A DNA stretch of 64,000 bases from Rhodobacter sp. 24-YEA-8. Lineage in GTDB: Bacteria > Pseudomonadota > Alphaproteobacteria > Rhodobacterales > Rhodobacteraceae. The DNA lies in contig NZ_FNSK01000002.1 in NCBI RefSeq assembly GCF_900105075.1, positions 467,001-531,000 on the forward strand, written 5' to 3'. A program made the translations under genes and the position numbers. The notes beneath the pieces are model-generated. The model had not been told where the DNA came from. It was given only the letters and a program-made list of their open reading frames with translations, and did no database searches. Positions 8,510 through 13,874 of the stretch are shown here, one piece after another (position 1 is the first letter of the stretch; each line of letters opens with the position of its first letter).

Positions 8510-9538
8510 CTATACCGGCAGTTCGCTGCGGGCGCCGCCGGGGAAATGTGAATACTTGTTCGGCGAAACCCCATATTTCTGCCGGAAGCTGCGCGCGAAA
8601 TGCGACGAGGAAACATAGCCGCAGGCCACGGCCACTTCCATCACCGTCATATTGGTTTCTGACAGCAAAAGCCTGCCATGCGACAGCCGCAGCCCGTTCA
8701 GATACTGCACCGGCGTCACGCCAAGATAGCGCCGGAACAGCCGCTGGATCTGGCGCGGCGTGACCCCGACATGATCGGCGCATTCCTCCAGCAGGAAATC
8801 CTCAGACAGACGCCCTTCCAGCCAGGCCACCGCCTTGACGACATGTTCGTTCCTCGTGCCCAGCCGCGAGGCGAGCGAGGTCATCTGATCATCGCTTTCG
8901 CGCCGCATATGGGTCAGCAGGCACATATCCATCACCGCCTGCGCCAAAGCCGGCCCGTAATGTTCCGAGATCAGCTTGACCACCAGTTCAGCCGAGGCGA
9001 TGCCGCCGGCACAGGTGATCACCCGGTTGTCGATGCAAAACACCCGGCGCAGCGGCTCCAGCTCCGGATAGGTCTCGATAAACCCGGGAATGTTTTCCCA
9101 ATGCAGCGTGAATTGCCTGTCCTTTAGGATCCCCGCTTTCGCCAGCGTATAGGCCCCGGTGCACAGGCTCCCCACCGTGCGGCCGCGTCGCCACTGCACC
9201 CGGATCCAGTCCGACATCCGCCGCGTCGTCGTCATCTCCGGCTCGGTCCCGGAGCAGATCAGCACATAGCCCGAGGGCGCCTCGGGCGGCAGCCCGCCAT
9301 CGACCCCGACCCTCATCCCGTTCGAGGCCGTGACCTGCTCGCCTTCAGACGACCAGACCGCCCATTCGAACAGCGTCTTCCCCGCCAGCTGGTTCGCCAC
9401 CCGCAGGGGCTCCACCGCCGAGGTGAAAGCCAGCATGGTGAATTGCGGCAGAAGAACAAACCCGACCGAGACCGGCGCCCCCTGATGCGGCACGTCGATA
9501 TGGGCCACGCCGCGCGAGACGAAAGACCGTGCGCTCAC
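8510..9538 (-). CDS. GlxA family AraC-type regulator, GbdR-like
   Basis: 342 residues. Residues about 20-190 form a DJ-1/PfpI-like (GATase1-like) sensor domain including VGSLCTGAYTLAKAGIL with its nucleophile-elbow Cys. Residues about 230-330 are two AraC helix-turn-helix motifs (LSEDFLLEECADHVGVTPRQ and MTVMEVAVACGYVSSSHFAR). This architecture is that of GlxA/ArgR/GbdR-type regulators; GbdR controls glycine betaine and choline catabolism in pseudomonads. The adjacent proXWV operon supports a betaine or carnitine role. It ends about 280 bp before proX. Confidence 0.85.
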   Translation of the reverse strand: MSARSFVSRGVAHIDVPHQGAPVSVGFVLLPQFTMLAFTSAVEPLRVANQLAGKTLFEWAVWSSEGEQVTASNGMRVGVDGGLPPEAPSGYVLICSGTEPEMTTTRRMSDWIRVQWRRGRTVGSLCTGAYTLAKAGILKDRQFTLHWENIPGFIETYPELEPLRRVFCIDNRVITCAGGIASAELVVKLISEHYGPALAQAVMDMCLLTHMRRESDDQMTSLASRLGTRNEHVVKAVAWLEGRLSEDFLLEECADHVGVTPRQIQRLFRRYLGVTPVQYLNGLRLSHGRLLLSETNMTVMEVAVACGYVSSSHFARSFRQKYGVSPNKYSHFPGGARSELPV

Positions 9539-10791
9539 TCCGCCCCTCCTGCGATACCGTCAAAGGCCCCGGGCGAGACCTCCTCCCAAAACACAAGAAT
9601 CGCAGCAGCGTTCAGCGCCGACATCCAGCCATGGCGTTCAAAATCATCACGGGCCGCACCGTCAAGCCGTGCCTGAAACAGCCGCCGGTCTGCATCACGC
9701 TGCGTTGGGGTCCGCGCCTGGGCGAGCGCCTGGATCCTCGCGAGCCGTTGCGCCCTCGGCGAAAGCGCGCCCGCTGCGGTAAGGTTTCGCGGCGAAACCT
9801 CCGCCGCATCTTTCGCGGCGCCTTCCTTCAGCACTTTCGACAAATAGCCGACCGCATTTCTTACGCCGCCCTGCCCCGCCACATAGTCAAGCTTCTGACG
9901 CAGATGATCCTCGCCATGTTCCTGGATCCATTGACGCGCCAGCCGGTCCGAGACCCCAAGCGCCCTGAGCCGCGCATAGGCATCTGAATTGCGATGCCCC
10001 TCGCCATCATCCATATCAAGGATCGCAAGCTGCGGGTTTTCGGCGATCAGAAACCGGATCTCTGTCACCTGGCGGCCCATTTTGCGAAAATCCGGTGTCA
10101 CCACGATATTCGACGTCTTGTTCACCTCGGTCACGGCAGGCTTGATGATCTTGGCGTTCAGATGCTTGAACTCATCATAATAGGGGCTGTCCGCCACCCC
10201 CATCAGCCGGCGGAAAATATCCAGCGACCACCACCCGGTCGAACCGGTGCGGATAAAGCGGTAGCAATTCTCATAAAGCGCCAGTGCATGGCCCGAGGTG
10301 AACCGCCGCTGGATGTTGAGATTGATCAGCGCGAATACCTTGGGGTCATGCAGCTTTTCCGCCAGCGCCGGCGAATAGGCATATTCGCAAACCCCGCCTT
10401 TGAGCTTGGCATAGGCCAGCAGCGCCGAGACCCCCCATTCCTGCTGACCATCGGCGTCAAGCATGTCCCATTCCGCCACCGTCTCTGCCAGCCCGCGCAG
10501 AGACGCTTTCAGCGTCTCCATATCATTCGAATTATAGCCGATCATCAGGCAAAGCGTGCGCGCATCGATCTGATGGCGCGGCTGCGAGGTCAGCGTGTCA
10601 TAGGCATTAAGAAGAAGCACATTCGACAGCTTGCGCTGAAGAAGGCTGAGCTTTCCCGACACATGGATCGCTGCCACGTGCTTCTTAACTGCGCCACGCC
10701 TGAGCGGCCCGCTCAGCCGGTCGCGCGGAATGTCCTCTGTTCCAGTCCTGTCTGAAACCCTGTCTTCTGTGACCCGTTCCGGGATCTGCAT
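9535..10791 (-). CDS. Plasmid replication initiator (Rep_3/RepB-like)
   Basis: 418 residues. The N-terminal two-thirds (LQRKLSNVLLLNAYDTLTSQ, then RHQIDARTLCLMIGY, KASLRGLAETVAEWDML and LYENCYRFIRTGSTGWWSL) resembles tandem winged-helix iteron-binding initiators. The C-terminal third has a helical IRFLIAENPQLAILDMDD and VRNAVGYLSKVLKEGAA region seen in Rep proteins of Rhodobacterales replicons. I set the start at 10791 (MQIPERV) because GAGGG lies 8 nt upstream. The longer open frame to 11028 would translate through the iterons and is probably not used. It is divergent from parAB. A parS-like palindrome sits inside the gene at 9782-9800. Confidence 0.82.
   Translation of the reverse strand: MQIPERVTEDRVSDRTGTEDIPRDRLSGPLRRGAVKKHVAAIHVSGKLSLLQRKLSNVLLLNAYDTLTSQPRHQIDARTLCLMIGYNSNDMETLKASLRGLAETVAEWDMLDADGQQEWGVSALLAYAKLKGGVCEYAYSPALAEKLHDPKVFALINLNIQRRFTSGHALALYENCYRFIRTGSTGWWSLDIFRRLMGVADSPYYDEFKHLNAKIIKPAVTEVNKTSNIVVTPDFRKMGRQVTEIRFLIAENPQLAILDMDDGEGHRNSDAYARLRALGVSDRLARQWIQEHGEDHLRQKLDYVAGQGGVRNAVGYLSKVLKEGAAKDAAEVSPRNLTAAGALSPRAQRLARIQALAQARTPTQRDADRRLFQARLDGAARDDFERHGWMSALNAAAILVFWEEVSPGAFDGIAGGAE
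9782..9800. promoter_or_regulatory. parS-like palindrome inside rep
   Basis: AGGTTTCGCGGCGAAACCT, a 19-bp palindrome around a single central base. The core GTTTCGC-S-GCGAAAC recurs in parA and parB. On the rep strand it encodes VSPRNL. Confidence 0.7.
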
Positions 10792-10993
10792 CGGCCTGCC
10801 CTCGCTCAGCGCCGGATCTGTAATCCGGTCATTGCGCAGACGCCCGGCCCATCGCCGAATCCCGTCTGTCGCTATTGTTATGGCGGGATCATCCGGCAAA
10901 AGGTATCCAAATGCAAGAACCGGACGGGAACCCTCAGCCGCAGTCAGAAGGCCGCACCGTAAACGGGAACCTGAGCCGTCCCGCAGCTTTCGG

Positions 10994-11015
10994 AAAGGTA
11001 TCCGTTTGCAGGAAG
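10994..11015 (+). repeat. Iteron copy 1 (forward)
   Basis: A 22-bp element AAAGGTATCC followed by GTTTGCAGGAAG. It matches the copy at 11132-11153 in inverted orientation at 21 of 22 positions. Confidence 0.75.
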
Positions 11016-11089
11016 CATCCCTGCCCAACCGGGTCCGGCCTGTGGATGATTCGGAGAAACAGGCTCTGTGCCTGCCATTTCTGGGTCAC

Positions 11090-11098
11090 TTATCCACA
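11090..11098 (+). promoter_or_regulatory. DnaA box
   Basis: TTATCCACA, an exact match to the bacterial DnaA box consensus, between the two inverted iterons. Confidence 0.65.
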
Positions 11099-11131
11099 AA
11101 ACTCCGCCCTCGCCCGGGAATCGGCACCTCT

Positions 11132-11153
11132 CTTCCTGCAAACGGATACCTTA
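11132..11153 (-). repeat. Iteron copy 2 (inverted)
   Basis: Reverse-complement partner of the 10994 element; the only difference is the last base. The two arms flank both DnaA boxes, a symmetrical arrangement suited to initiator binding or autoregulation. Confidence 0.75.
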
Positions 11154-11407
11154 TGTCCTGAAACCGGATACCCATTGCCCCGTATCGGGGCACCTATCCT
11201 GCCGGAAGACACTGTTTTTGCAGGATTAGTGACCTGGTAAAGACTCTAAAGCGAAAAAAGAATATGAAACAGGGACCGCTTTGTTCTCTCTTTTCGATAA
11301 AATCCAGAAAGATCAGCGATCAGATGGCCAGGAATGATTCCCTTCTGGCCTATGATGTGCCATAGTTCGGGCAATATCAGCATAAACTGCGAACATACAG
11401 GCAAAGA

Positions 11408-12808
11408 ATGGCACAGAAACCAGTGCTTCCGGGCAAGACTGATCTCCCCCCCTATTTCAACATCGACCCGGCCCAGGCCGCGGCAAGGCTGGCCGATCCC
11501 ATCGATACCGCGCGCTTTGCCAAGGCTGCGGCTTTCGCCAGCCGGGGCCGCGATGATCTGGCGAAACGGGGTTATGCGCCGGATGGCAAAAAGCGGCTGC
11601 GCCGGTTTTCGACCTGGGAAGTCTGCCGCTATCTGATCCCGGTCAATTCCGCCCATCTGCGGCGCGTCCTGCGGCTGAACCCGGAATTGCCACAGGGCGA
11701 AGGGGAGGGCGGTTCCAAATGGTTCACGCTCGAAGAGGTGCTGGCGCTGCGCGACCATTTCGCAGCTGAGGGCGCGCGGGGTCGTGAATACCGCGCCTGG
11801 CGCCCGGAGGGCCTGCCCGCCAAAGTCGTCGCCATTGCGAATTTCAAGGGCGGCGTCGGCAAGACCTCCACCGCCGCGCATCTGGCCATGTCTGCCGCGC
11901 TCGACGGCTATAAGGTTCTGGTGATCGATCTCGACAGCCAGGGCTCGATGACCTCGATCATGGGCGGCAAGGTCGAGGATGAATGGAAAACGGTCTTCCC
12001 TCTGCTTGCCCGTGACTATGCGCTGCGGCTGAAGGAGGAAAACGAGGTGCGTGTTGCCAATGGGGACGCGCCGTTTACCTTTGATGAAACCCTGACCGAG
12101 GCACTGAAGGTTTCGCCGCGAAACCTTGTGCAAAAGACCCATTGGCCGAATATCGATCTGATTGGCGCGCAGCTGAACCTGTACTGGGCCGAATTCCAGG
12201 TGCCGGTCTGGCGGATGCAGCTCAGGTCCTGGCAACTTTGGGACGCGCTGTCGAACGCGCTCACGGAAGGCGGGTTGCTGGATGAGTATGATCTCGTGCT
12301 GCTCGATACCCCGCCGGCGCTTGGCTATCTGACGATCAACGCGCTGGCGGCGGCGGATATTCTCCTGGTGCCACTTGGGGCGTCCTTCCTCGAATTCGAT
12401 TCGACGGGGCGGTTCTTTGACATGATCTACTCCACCTTTGCCTCGATCGAAGAAGGTGAGAACCGGGCGCGACGTGGCTCTGGCCTGCCCGAGATGCGGT
12501 TCGAATGGGATGCCGTCCGGGCGCTGATCACTCGGTTCGATGCGGCGCAACAGACCGATCTGGCCAATGTCGTTCAGGCCTGGTTTGGTGATTTCATGAC
12601 CACCTACCGGCAGGAGGTGACGGCGATGGTCGGCCAGGCAGGCGAGCAGGTTTCGGGCATCTATGAAACCGATTACCGCGATTATAACCGCGACACCTGG
12701 GTGCGCGGGCGTGAGACGTTCGATCGTACCTGGGCCGAGGTGAAAGAGCTGATCCTCGGCACCTGGTGGCGCGATCAGCAGCTGGCCAAAGCGGCAGAGG
12801 AGGGCTGA
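11408..12808 (+). CDS. parA: Partition ATPase ParA/RepA family
   Basis: 466 residues. An N-terminal DNA-binding region (residues about 1-130, with FSTWEVCRYLIPVNSAHLRR like a MerR/HTH segment) precedes the deviant Walker A FKGGVGKTSTAAHL, Walker A' (LVIDLDSQGSMTSI) and Walker B (DEYDLVLLDTPPAL). This is a long type Ia ParA, as in RepABC-like systems, which segregates the replicon and autoregulates par. It is divergent from rep across the origin, with parB 4 nt downstream. It carries a parS-like palindrome at 12107-12127 that encodes VSPRNL, the same hexapeptide as in Rep. Confidence 0.92.
   Translation: MAQKPVLPGKTDLPPYFNIDPAQAAARLADPIDTARFAKAAAFASRGRDDLAKRGYAPDGKKRLRRFSTWEVCRYLIPVNSAHLRRVLRLNPELPQGEGEGGSKWFTLEEVLALRDHFAAEGARGREYRAWRPEGLPAKVVAIANFKGGVGKTSTAAHLAMSAALDGYKVLVIDLDSQGSMTSIMGGKVEDEWKTVFPLLARDYALRLKEENEVRVANGDAPFTFDETLTEALKVSPRNLVQKTHWPNIDLIGAQLNLYWAEFQVPVWRMQLRSWQLWDALSNALTEGGLLDEYDLVLLDTPPALGYLTINALAAADILLVPLGASFLEFDSTGRFFDMIYSTFASIEEGENRARRGSGLPEMRFEWDAVRALITRFDAAQQTDLANVVQAWFGDFMTTYRQEVTAMVGQAGEQVSGIYETDYRDYNRDTWVRGRETFDRTWAEVKELILGTWWRDQQLAKAAEEG
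12107..12127. promoter_or_regulatory. parS-like palindrome inside parA
   Basis: A 21-bp palindrome around a single central base: AAGGTTTCGC, C, GCGAAACCTT. It shares the GTTTCGC-S-GCGAAAC core with the sites in rep and parB. Confidence 0.7.
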
Positions 12809-12812
12809 GACA

Positions 12813-13874
12813 ATGGCAAAACGCAGAACGCTGGTGCCGCCATCGGCCGAAGACATCAATCGAGTCGAGGAAGAGTTTCGCCGCGAAACCTCGCTGCCGC
12901 GCCCGAGTGCCGCCCCGATTGCGACGGTTGCGGCCGAGGCGGCCGCGGCGCTCGATCCGCGACCAGCGGTCGAGCGGATCGAGGTCGCGCGTGATCGTCA
13001 GGACGCCAGCGCCTGGCGCGAGGCGCAGGGACAGGGGCTGGTAATGCTCGACCTTGCGACCGACGGGATCGAGGCCGATGCCCTGGTGCGCGACCGCAGT
13101 TCGATCGGGGCGGAGGAGATGGAGGAGCTGAAGCTTTCCATCGCGAAGAACGGGCTGCGCCTGCCGGTCGAGGTTTTCGCACTGCCTTCAGGGGGCTATG
13201 GGCTCTTGTCCGGCTATCGGCGGCTGATGGCGGTCCGGGCGCTCCGGGCGCTGAGCGGCGATGCCCGTTACGACCGCATCCGCGCGGTGCTGCGCGACCC
13301 CGAGACCCTGGGCGGCCCTATTGCCGCCATGGTTGAGGAGAATGAGGTCCGCGCCGGTCTCAGCCAGTTCGAGCGTGGTCGCATCGCGGTGCTCGCCGCG
13401 CAGCAGGGCGCTTTCCCCAATGTCGAGGCGGCGGTTGAGGCGCTGTTTCCTGTGGCGTCAAAGGGGAAACGGTCAAAGATCCGTTCCTTCGCGCTGATCT
13501 TCGAAGAGCTTGGCGACATGCTTTCCTTCCCCGAACAGTTGCGTGAGAAAGACGGGCTGCGGCTGGCAACTGCGCTGCGCGAGGGCGCGGAGGGTACCTT
13601 GCGCGAGGCACTTGCGCAGGGCACGCCGGCCAATGCCGAGGAAGAGGCGACGTTGCTGGATCTGGCTCTGGCCGGTCTTGCGCCCAAGGCTGCAGATCCG
13701 AAACGCGGCGGACGGCCAAAGCGGGATGTGCTGGCGCCGGTGCTGTCGCCATCTGGCTTCCGGCTTGAGGCCCAGGAAGATGCAAAAGGCTGGTCAATCC
13801 GGCTTGGAGGCCGCGCGGCCACGCGTGAGATTGTCGAACGGGTGATGCGTGAGATGGCGCGGGCGCTTGGGTGA
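12813..13874 (+). CDS. parB: Partition protein ParB/RepB family
   Basis: 353 residues. An N-terminal basic MAKRRTLVPPS tail is followed by a ParB nuclease-like fold (EEMEELKLSIAKNGLRLPVE, LLSGYRRLMAVRAL), the GPIAAMVEENEVRAGLSQFE motif equivalent to the (V)ENxxRxxLSxxE box, and a HTH region (RGRIAVLAAQQGAFPNVEAA). The C-terminal 50 residues carry IRLGGRAATREIVERVMREM. It binds parS and works with ParA. A third parS-like core lies at 12875-12889, here read in another frame (FRRET). Confidence 0.9.
   Translation: MAKRRTLVPPSAEDINRVEEEFRRETSLPRPSAAPIATVAAEAAAALDPRPAVERIEVARDRQDASAWREAQGQGLVMLDLATDGIEADALVRDRSSIGAEEMEELKLSIAKNGLRLPVEVFALPSGGYGLLSGYRRLMAVRALRALSGDARYDRIRAVLRDPETLGGPIAAMVEENEVRAGLSQFERGRIAVLAAQQGAFPNVEAAVEALFPVASKGKRSKIRSFALIFEELGDMLSFPEQLREKDGLRLATALREGAEGTLREALAQGTPANAEEEATLLDLALAGLAPKAADPKRGGRPKRDVLAPVLSPSGFRLEAQEDAKGWSIRLGGRAATREIVERVMREMARALG
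12875..12889. promoter_or_regulatory. parS-like palindrome inside parB
   Basis: GTTTCGCCGCGAAAC, identical over 15 bp to the core of the parA site and to the complement of the rep site, near codon 21 of parB. Confidence 0.68.

Follow-up and report, generated by a model that had tools for sequence, protein, structure and literature searches.

Putative parS palindromes within the rep, parA and parB coding sequences of a Rep_3-type Rhodobacterales replicon

Why should one and the same palindrome lie within the coding sequences of a replication initiator, a partition ATPase and a ParB-like protein? This question was raised by a stretch of 64,000 nucleotides, hereafter called the window (G000:C2:467001-531000; contig C2 comprises 549,856 bases). 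A sequence-only reading had reported the 15-mer GTTTCGC-S-GCGAAAC once in each of the three replicon genes, and had proposed that selection acts on the DNA and that the sites serve as parS. The features concerned are:

9535..10791, minus strand: rep, probable CDS of a Rep_3 (RepB-type) replication initiator of 418 aa
10892..11177, no strand assigned: four iteron-like GGTATCC-containing repeats between rep and parA, two per orientation
11408..12808, plus strand: parA, type Ia-like partition ATPase with a KGGVGKT deviant Walker A motif in the translation (AAA_31, 5.4e-31)
12813..13874, plus strand: parB, ParB-like putative centromere-binding protein, presumed to read the palindromes
9784..9798, no strand assigned: parS-like palindrome 1, located towards the 3′ end of rep (VSPRNL, beginning at residue 332); 22 of 68 tree loci have a site in this slot
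12110..12124, no strand assigned: parS-like palindrome 2, in parA codons 235-239 (VSPRN); 34 of 68 tree loci have a site in this slot
12875..12889, no strand assigned: parS-like palindrome 3, in parB, FRRET from residue 22; 54 of 68 tree loci have a site in this slot

An exact search located three copies of the palindrome in the window, one per replicon gene, in agreement with the sequence-only reading, and disclosed no further copy there; dinucleotide shuffling (100 rounds) gave a mean of 0.00. The positions 9784-9798 and 12875-12889 given previously were confirmed, but 12109-12125 corresponds to a 17-bp extension, GGTTTCGCCGCGAAACC, the 15-bp core of which occupies 12110-12124. The reported reading frames were likewise recovered, VSPRNL starting at rep residue 332 and at parA residue 235, and FRRET at parB residue 22. 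Many copies scattered through the genome had been named as an argument against a parS role; the complete genome (5,011,740 bases on 7 contigs) contained exactly three, all of them in the replicon core. When up to three mismatches were allowed, six window matches were obtained (2.82 expected), a number reached by 9 of 100 shuffles. Since near-matches are this common in shuffled DNA, only the three exact copies stand out. A loose-pattern match at C3:188673, GTTTCGAGCCGAAAC, has an imperfect centre and was taken as a chance match. A 16-bp form of the palindrome, described below, was not found on contig C2.

The ATG at position 10791 was picked as start of rep by its likeness in length to named homologues (annotated with 1164-1200 bases); the longest open reading frame begins at 11028. 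The GGTATCC repeats at 10892-11177 are probably the Rep_3 oriV of the same replicon and thus context, not part of parS; they include a perfect 21-nt inverted pair (10995-11015/11132-11152). As type Ia ParABS systems require, a ParA ATPase with a deviant Walker A motif adjoins parB, and the repeated palindrome is tied to parAB and to a subfamily of ParB. The profile of this family matched the N-domains of solved ParB/Noc structures (best value 5.1e-11), the motif S-G-x-R-R is invariant in it, and a basic stretch, SKxKRSKIRSF, is conserved as a candidate HTH region. A CTP-binding N-domain is therefore predicted for the window ParB from its sequence; Pfam ParB_N gave 19.9 bits, under the cut-off of 26.3. 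The replicon is not of the repABC type, as its Rep_3 initiator is divergent, its palindrome is odd with 15 bp, and its ParB attained 33 bits with TIGR03454 (cut-off 201.5). The same gene arrangement is present on NZ_CP085156, whose ParB is 51% identical to that of the window and which is tabulated as RepB-I (PMC9025767). By ParB, the closest named relatives are Paracoccus sp. IB05 (97%), Pseudogemmobacter bohemicus (88%) and P. hezensis (79%). All three sites were recovered in IB05 (92.6% DNA identity over the aligned parAB) and P. hezensis (81.8%); P. bohemicus lacks the parB site.

To what extent the palindrome accompanies this ParB was studied in 394 genomes of the family, 72 of which contain a close ParB (match with E ≤ 1.2e-58) at 72 loci; the search scored five candidates per genome and may have missed some ParBs. 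The 15-mer was present in 53 of the 72 genomes, in 40 of them at least twice, as against 18 of the 322 others (Fisher p 5.9e-34, uncorrected for relatedness), and was absent in its exact form from 19 of the 72. It occurred in 11 of 128 genomes with weaker ParB matches only, and in 7 of 194 with no ParB among the matches listed (1-3 copies each). The pattern read backwards, used as a control, was found in 4 of the 72 genomes and in 19 of the 322 others, so that the 18 of 322 obtained with the 15-mer look like background. Within the 72 genomes, 118 of 156 copies lie between -3.7 and +4 kb from the parB start. On ten complete named plasmids, 26 of 29 matches were situated at rep-parAB or at most 0.8 kb away, and the three distant ones have imperfect centres. 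Among the matches listed, no genome contained a second strong ParB locus, which is weak evidence for an incompatibility group. Three genomes (G370, G262, G308) carry more copies than most on several other contigs, one per contig; in G370, nine of 16 copies lie off the par contig. These could be chance matches, remnants of decayed replicons or additional ParB sites. Copies outside par loci, as far as they were read, often lie singly in open reading frames and have a less regular outer base.

At the 72 loci, one per genome, the more general pattern GTTTCG-N3/4-CGAAAC was found in 70, the exceptions being L083 and L110, the latter with an incomplete parB. A single site was found in L036, L055, L068, L074, L112, L119 and L120; the loci L036, L110, L112, L119 and L120 either are incomplete or border a contig end, and the contig of L112 bears two additional copies at its opposite end. 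The parB gene of L036 (G273:C475) contains an in-frame TAG near the contig end, by decay or assembly error. A de novo scan with all 6-mer half-sites and gaps of 0-6 recovered GTTTCG-N3 twice or more in 52 of the 72 loci and the N4 form in 11. Any other half-site shared by two or more loci was this palindrome in another register, and unrelated ones occurred in at most one. In the stretch 1.5-6.5 kb downstream, GTTTCG-N3 was found twice or more in two loci. All 80 loci of a further named group, which overlaps in part with the first, contained the site, 77 with N3 only, one with N4 only and two with both.

The sites reside mainly in five homologous slots: the 3′ end of rep, the rep-parA gap, parA codons 235-239, parB codons ~22-26 and the DNA just after parB. 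For 68 loci a ParB tree was calculated (L073, L110, L119 and L120 were dropped, their parB starts being missing or doubtful), in which these slots are filled in 22, 32, 34, 54 and 35 loci, respectively. By a quick method, every slot requires 10-14 changes on this tree. In the window, no site occupies the gap slot; where present, gap sites precede the parA start by 71-145 bp (189 bp in L085). Site number varied somewhat less among the 61 complete loci than after permutation (variance 0.86 vs 1.16, P 0.056), and the rep and downstream slots anticorrelated (p 6.5e-5), relatedness being uncontrolled in both calculations.

Could the proteins themselves account for the repeats, VSPRNL and FRRET being required as peptides and the palindrome merely coinciding with them? 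At the parA slot, VSPRN is indeed more frequent than any other peptide (24 loci with palindrome among 69 aligned). The palindrome is present there in 33 of the 69 loci, as VSPRN, VSSRN or VSLRN, but the 36 loci without it carry many different peptides, only one of them VSSRN. Moreover, the identical 15 nucleotides were found in 22 of 23 other loci encoding VSPRN, and positions 235, 236, 238 and 239 are the only four of 293 conserved parA positions with 100% codon identity in these 23 loci (mean 0.514). Elsewhere the palindrome is translated in different frames. In parB it gives EFRRET and kin in 24 loci, GFAAKP and kin in 22 and, in its 16-bp form, GFARET and kin in nine. In rep, 17 of 23 sites are read as VSxRN and six in the GFAAKP/GFVTKP frame, three of these just past the stop codon. 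Palindromes that do follow from protein conservation behave differently: CCATGA-N6-TCATGG, present in parA of 16 loci, occurs once per locus and at one place. Thus, we concluded that the palindrome is held by selection on DNA rather than on protein, as the sequence-only reading had supposed. Codon identity and the multiple frames led us to reject protein constraint as its cause, and the chance that it is the right explanation after all is negligible.

Within the close ParB subfamily (class 1) the half-sites are 3 or 4 bp apart, and both spacings were found together in only three of the 70 site-bearing loci (L069, L080 and L081, whole stretches considered). Between -3.6 and +2.5 kb, 54 of the 68 tree loci have N3 sites only, 11 N4 only, two are mixed and one is without a site. 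L058, L062, L077 and L111 contain three N4 sites each and no N3, and in L059 all four sites read GTTTCGT-S-ACGAAAC. The quick ParB tree indicated five switches between N3 and N4, at least four of which are forced by well-supported branches; the sister loci L090 and L116 have two N4 and three N3 sites, respectively. That the sites of a locus change in concert points to one trans-acting reader. In a scan of class 1 ParB residues 165-260, only 165, 246 and 260 differed somewhat with spacing, and none in the basic stretch of the candidate HTH tracked it.

A related partition system exists in the same cell. Contig C7 (39.8 kb) carries a par cassette whose ParA and ParB are 68% and 44% identical to those of the window (aligned parts), and which adjoins an RPA replicase, not Rep_3. 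It contains the 16-bp palindrome GTTTCGCGCGCGAAAC, of the form TGTTTCGC-GC-GCGAAACA, twice, one copy preceding the parB start by ~20 bp and the other lying in the 3′ portion of the gene; the 15-bp form was not found on C7. The chromosome possesses GTTTCA-CG-TGAAAC, with two exact copies and two differing by one base around the chromosomal parB gene (C1:3054745-3064954). The window sites are not the chromosomal parS TGTTTCACGTGAAACA, as sequence and spacing both differ. The three partition systems of one cell therefore seem to rely on a GTTTC half-site whose centre measures 2, 3 or 4 bp.

To extend this comparison, 41 stretches with weaker ParB matches (class 2) were chosen among the matches listed; two were dropped for want of parB and 39 kept. 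N4 sites only were present in 24 of them and N3 only in three, 12 being without a GTTTCG site; an RPA homologue was found in 27 (one a fragment), and L230, one of the loci devoid of sites, has a Rep_3 homologue. The outer base also separates the classes. In class 1 it is G in 0.82 of the N3 half-sites (170 sites) and 0.97 of the N4 half-sites (31 sites), in class 2 T in 0.81 of both N4 (53 sites) and N3 (8 sites). From 17 picked genomes with one locus per class, 14 have sites in both (those of class 1 in G203 were taken from the other end of its contig). The spacing differs between the classes in 11 of these 14 pairs and is the same in G067, G107 and G270. The outer base is mainly G in class 1 of all 14 pairs and mainly T in class 2 of 11; T and C tie in G345 and G203, and G262 has G at a lone distant class 2 site. 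ParB residues such as K217/R217 and G189/A189, among others, separate the classes, to which we attach no causal claim. Other palindromes are repeated in the class 2 loci L217 (GTCTCGC) and L234 (GTTCCGC) and are perhaps further parS specificities. L225 (G341:C187) carries eight sites in 8.5 kb, including four 16-bp parS-like sites at -239, -209, -179 and -149 before parB with a period of 30 bp. In L216 (G094:C2:67000-80000), parB and an RPA fragment lie among polysaccharide genes with five 16-bp sites kept; it looks like a decayed class 2 replicon.

In ParABS systems, parS is bound by a ParB dimer, which is loaded there as a CTP clamp, moves onto adjacent DNA by sliding and stimulates ParA. 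Judged from sequence, the three palindromes are in all likelihood (probability roughly 0.88) parS sites of a type Ia ParABS system on a large Rep_3 (RepB-type) Rhodobacterales replicon, with the adjacent ParB as presumed reader. The association with a ParB subfamily, the mostly uniform variants within a locus and the co-resident paralogue with a variant palindrome of its own strongly support this putative role. A ParB dimer from the adjacent gene would sit on each palindrome, one DNA-binding domain per GTTTCG half-site, load there and spread in a CTP-dependent manner over the rep-parA-parB segment, and ParA would move the complex. That the partition complex requires several sites close to ori and parAB would explain their position within codons, each gene carrying whichever peptide the DNA dictates. 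The crowding of sites near ori and the par genes, together with their turnover between coding and non-coding positions, fits several loading sites rather than one exact place.

Type Ia ParA proteins are autorepressors, and this together with the recurrent slot upstream of parA would suit an operator for ParA (N-terminal extension) or Rep, acting mainly in autoregulation and not as a centromere. Many sites, though, are situated within genes or beyond their 3′ ends; in L057 they reach as far as 3.7 kb downstream of the parB start. Rep is an unlikely reader, since the sister cassette on C7 and its kin use the same half-site next to the unrelated RPA replicase. ParA might, at low probability, be the reader, as it diverges together with ParB. 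Against this, L216 has five sites around parB and no parA homologue in 13 kb (tblastn; Pfam on 5 of 11 ORFs of at least 200 aa), an argument countered by L215, L233, L235, L236, L238 and L240, in which parB without a parA match is accompanied by no such site. Taken as a whole, we regard the operator as improbable, though the gap slot of many relatives could serve autoregulation in addition. Still less probable is an RNA hairpin, a recombination element or a terminator. It would agree with a short perfect inverted repeat and with the many copies in a few genomes such as G370, but an RNA helix would allow compensated drift of its arms. What recurs instead are the GTTTCG arms with varying centre and spacing, whether in intergenic regions or in genes on either strand.

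The putative parS sites may be compared with several known systems. Near the replicon genes of repABC plasmids of Rhodobacterales and Rhizobiales, palindromes anchor RepB, some in coding sequences downstream of repC, and parS was also found in cas genes (PMC9040568). According to the passages cited, the 16-bp consensus GTTNNCNGCNGNNAAC of Rhodobacterales chiefly occupies the repB-repC interval or the DNA downstream of repC (PMC9040568, PMC5613091), and a single reciprocal base exchange in the palindrome separates the compatible RepABC-1 and RepABC-2 (PMC5613091). Our palindromes share with these the vicinity of replicon genes and a partly intragenic position; they differ in having a length of 15 or 16 bp with GTTTCG half-sites and in belonging to a Rep_3 replicon, where the coding sequences of rep, parA and parB contain them. 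On SCP2 of Streptomyces, ChIP-seq placed the parS inverted repeat inside the gene of its own centromere-binding protein ParT, there as one 18-bp site of a CTP-independent protein (PMC12260392). Intragenic parS is thus already known from SCP2 parT (PMC12260392) and repABC (PMC9040568), and the present case is a variant of it.

An oligonucleotide with the RK2 operator OB of KorB contains TTTTAGCGGCTAAAA; it is the site of a ParB-family protein and, like our palindrome, odd with a GC-S-GC centre, but its half-site is TTTAGC and KorB is also a long-range gene silencer (PMC11790492). In Burkholderiales, similar Bsr palindromes of co-resident replicons are each bound with narrow specificity by their own ParB. 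The six sites studied have 16 bp with a central CG, and spacing variants do not figure in the cited part of that work (PMC5450999). For chromosomal parS and the Noc site NBS, the ParB DNA-binding domain reads a GTTTC half-site, and two bases separate parS from NBS; that parS differs from ours by GTTTCA and a 2-bp centre (PMC7383237). Neither the 15-mer nor the 16-bp core was found in PMC texts among the matches listed; older plasmid papers in subscription journals could contain them. The titles and abstract beginnings searched held no description of parS or palindromes of RepB-type Rhodobacterales replicons. Nor did the literature searched offer spacing-based discrimination between co-resident ParABS systems, or five conserved slots with three in coding sequence.

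The matter bears on how related partition systems can coexist in a multi-replicon cell without mis-sorting: the exact spacing may help to keep the window sites distinct from those of the second co-resident plasmid. We propose, at about even odds, that ParB specificity is set in part by the spacing of the GTTTC half-sites: in one cell, the chromosomal ParB would read a 2-bp centre, the Rep_3-type ParB a 3-bp centre and the RPA-type ParB a 4-bp centre, while the outer base (G or T) would serve as a second letter. A change of 1 bp in every site of a replicon, absorbed even in coding sequence by a changed reading, would then make a new compatible partition system. One genome provides a natural series of one half-site, three spacings and two outer bases, 13 further genomes contain a comparable plasmid pair, and the series is testable with purified ParB and the short duplexes GGTTTCGC-S-GCGAAACC, GGTTTCGC-GC-GCGAAACC, TGTTTCGC-S-GCGAAACA and TGTTTCGC-GC-GCGAAACA. 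The data supply candidate parS motifs for Rep_3- and RPA-type plasmids of Rhodobacterales. A putative DNA-binding site kept across genera inside coding sequence, with up to three readings, also warns against assuming protein constraint.
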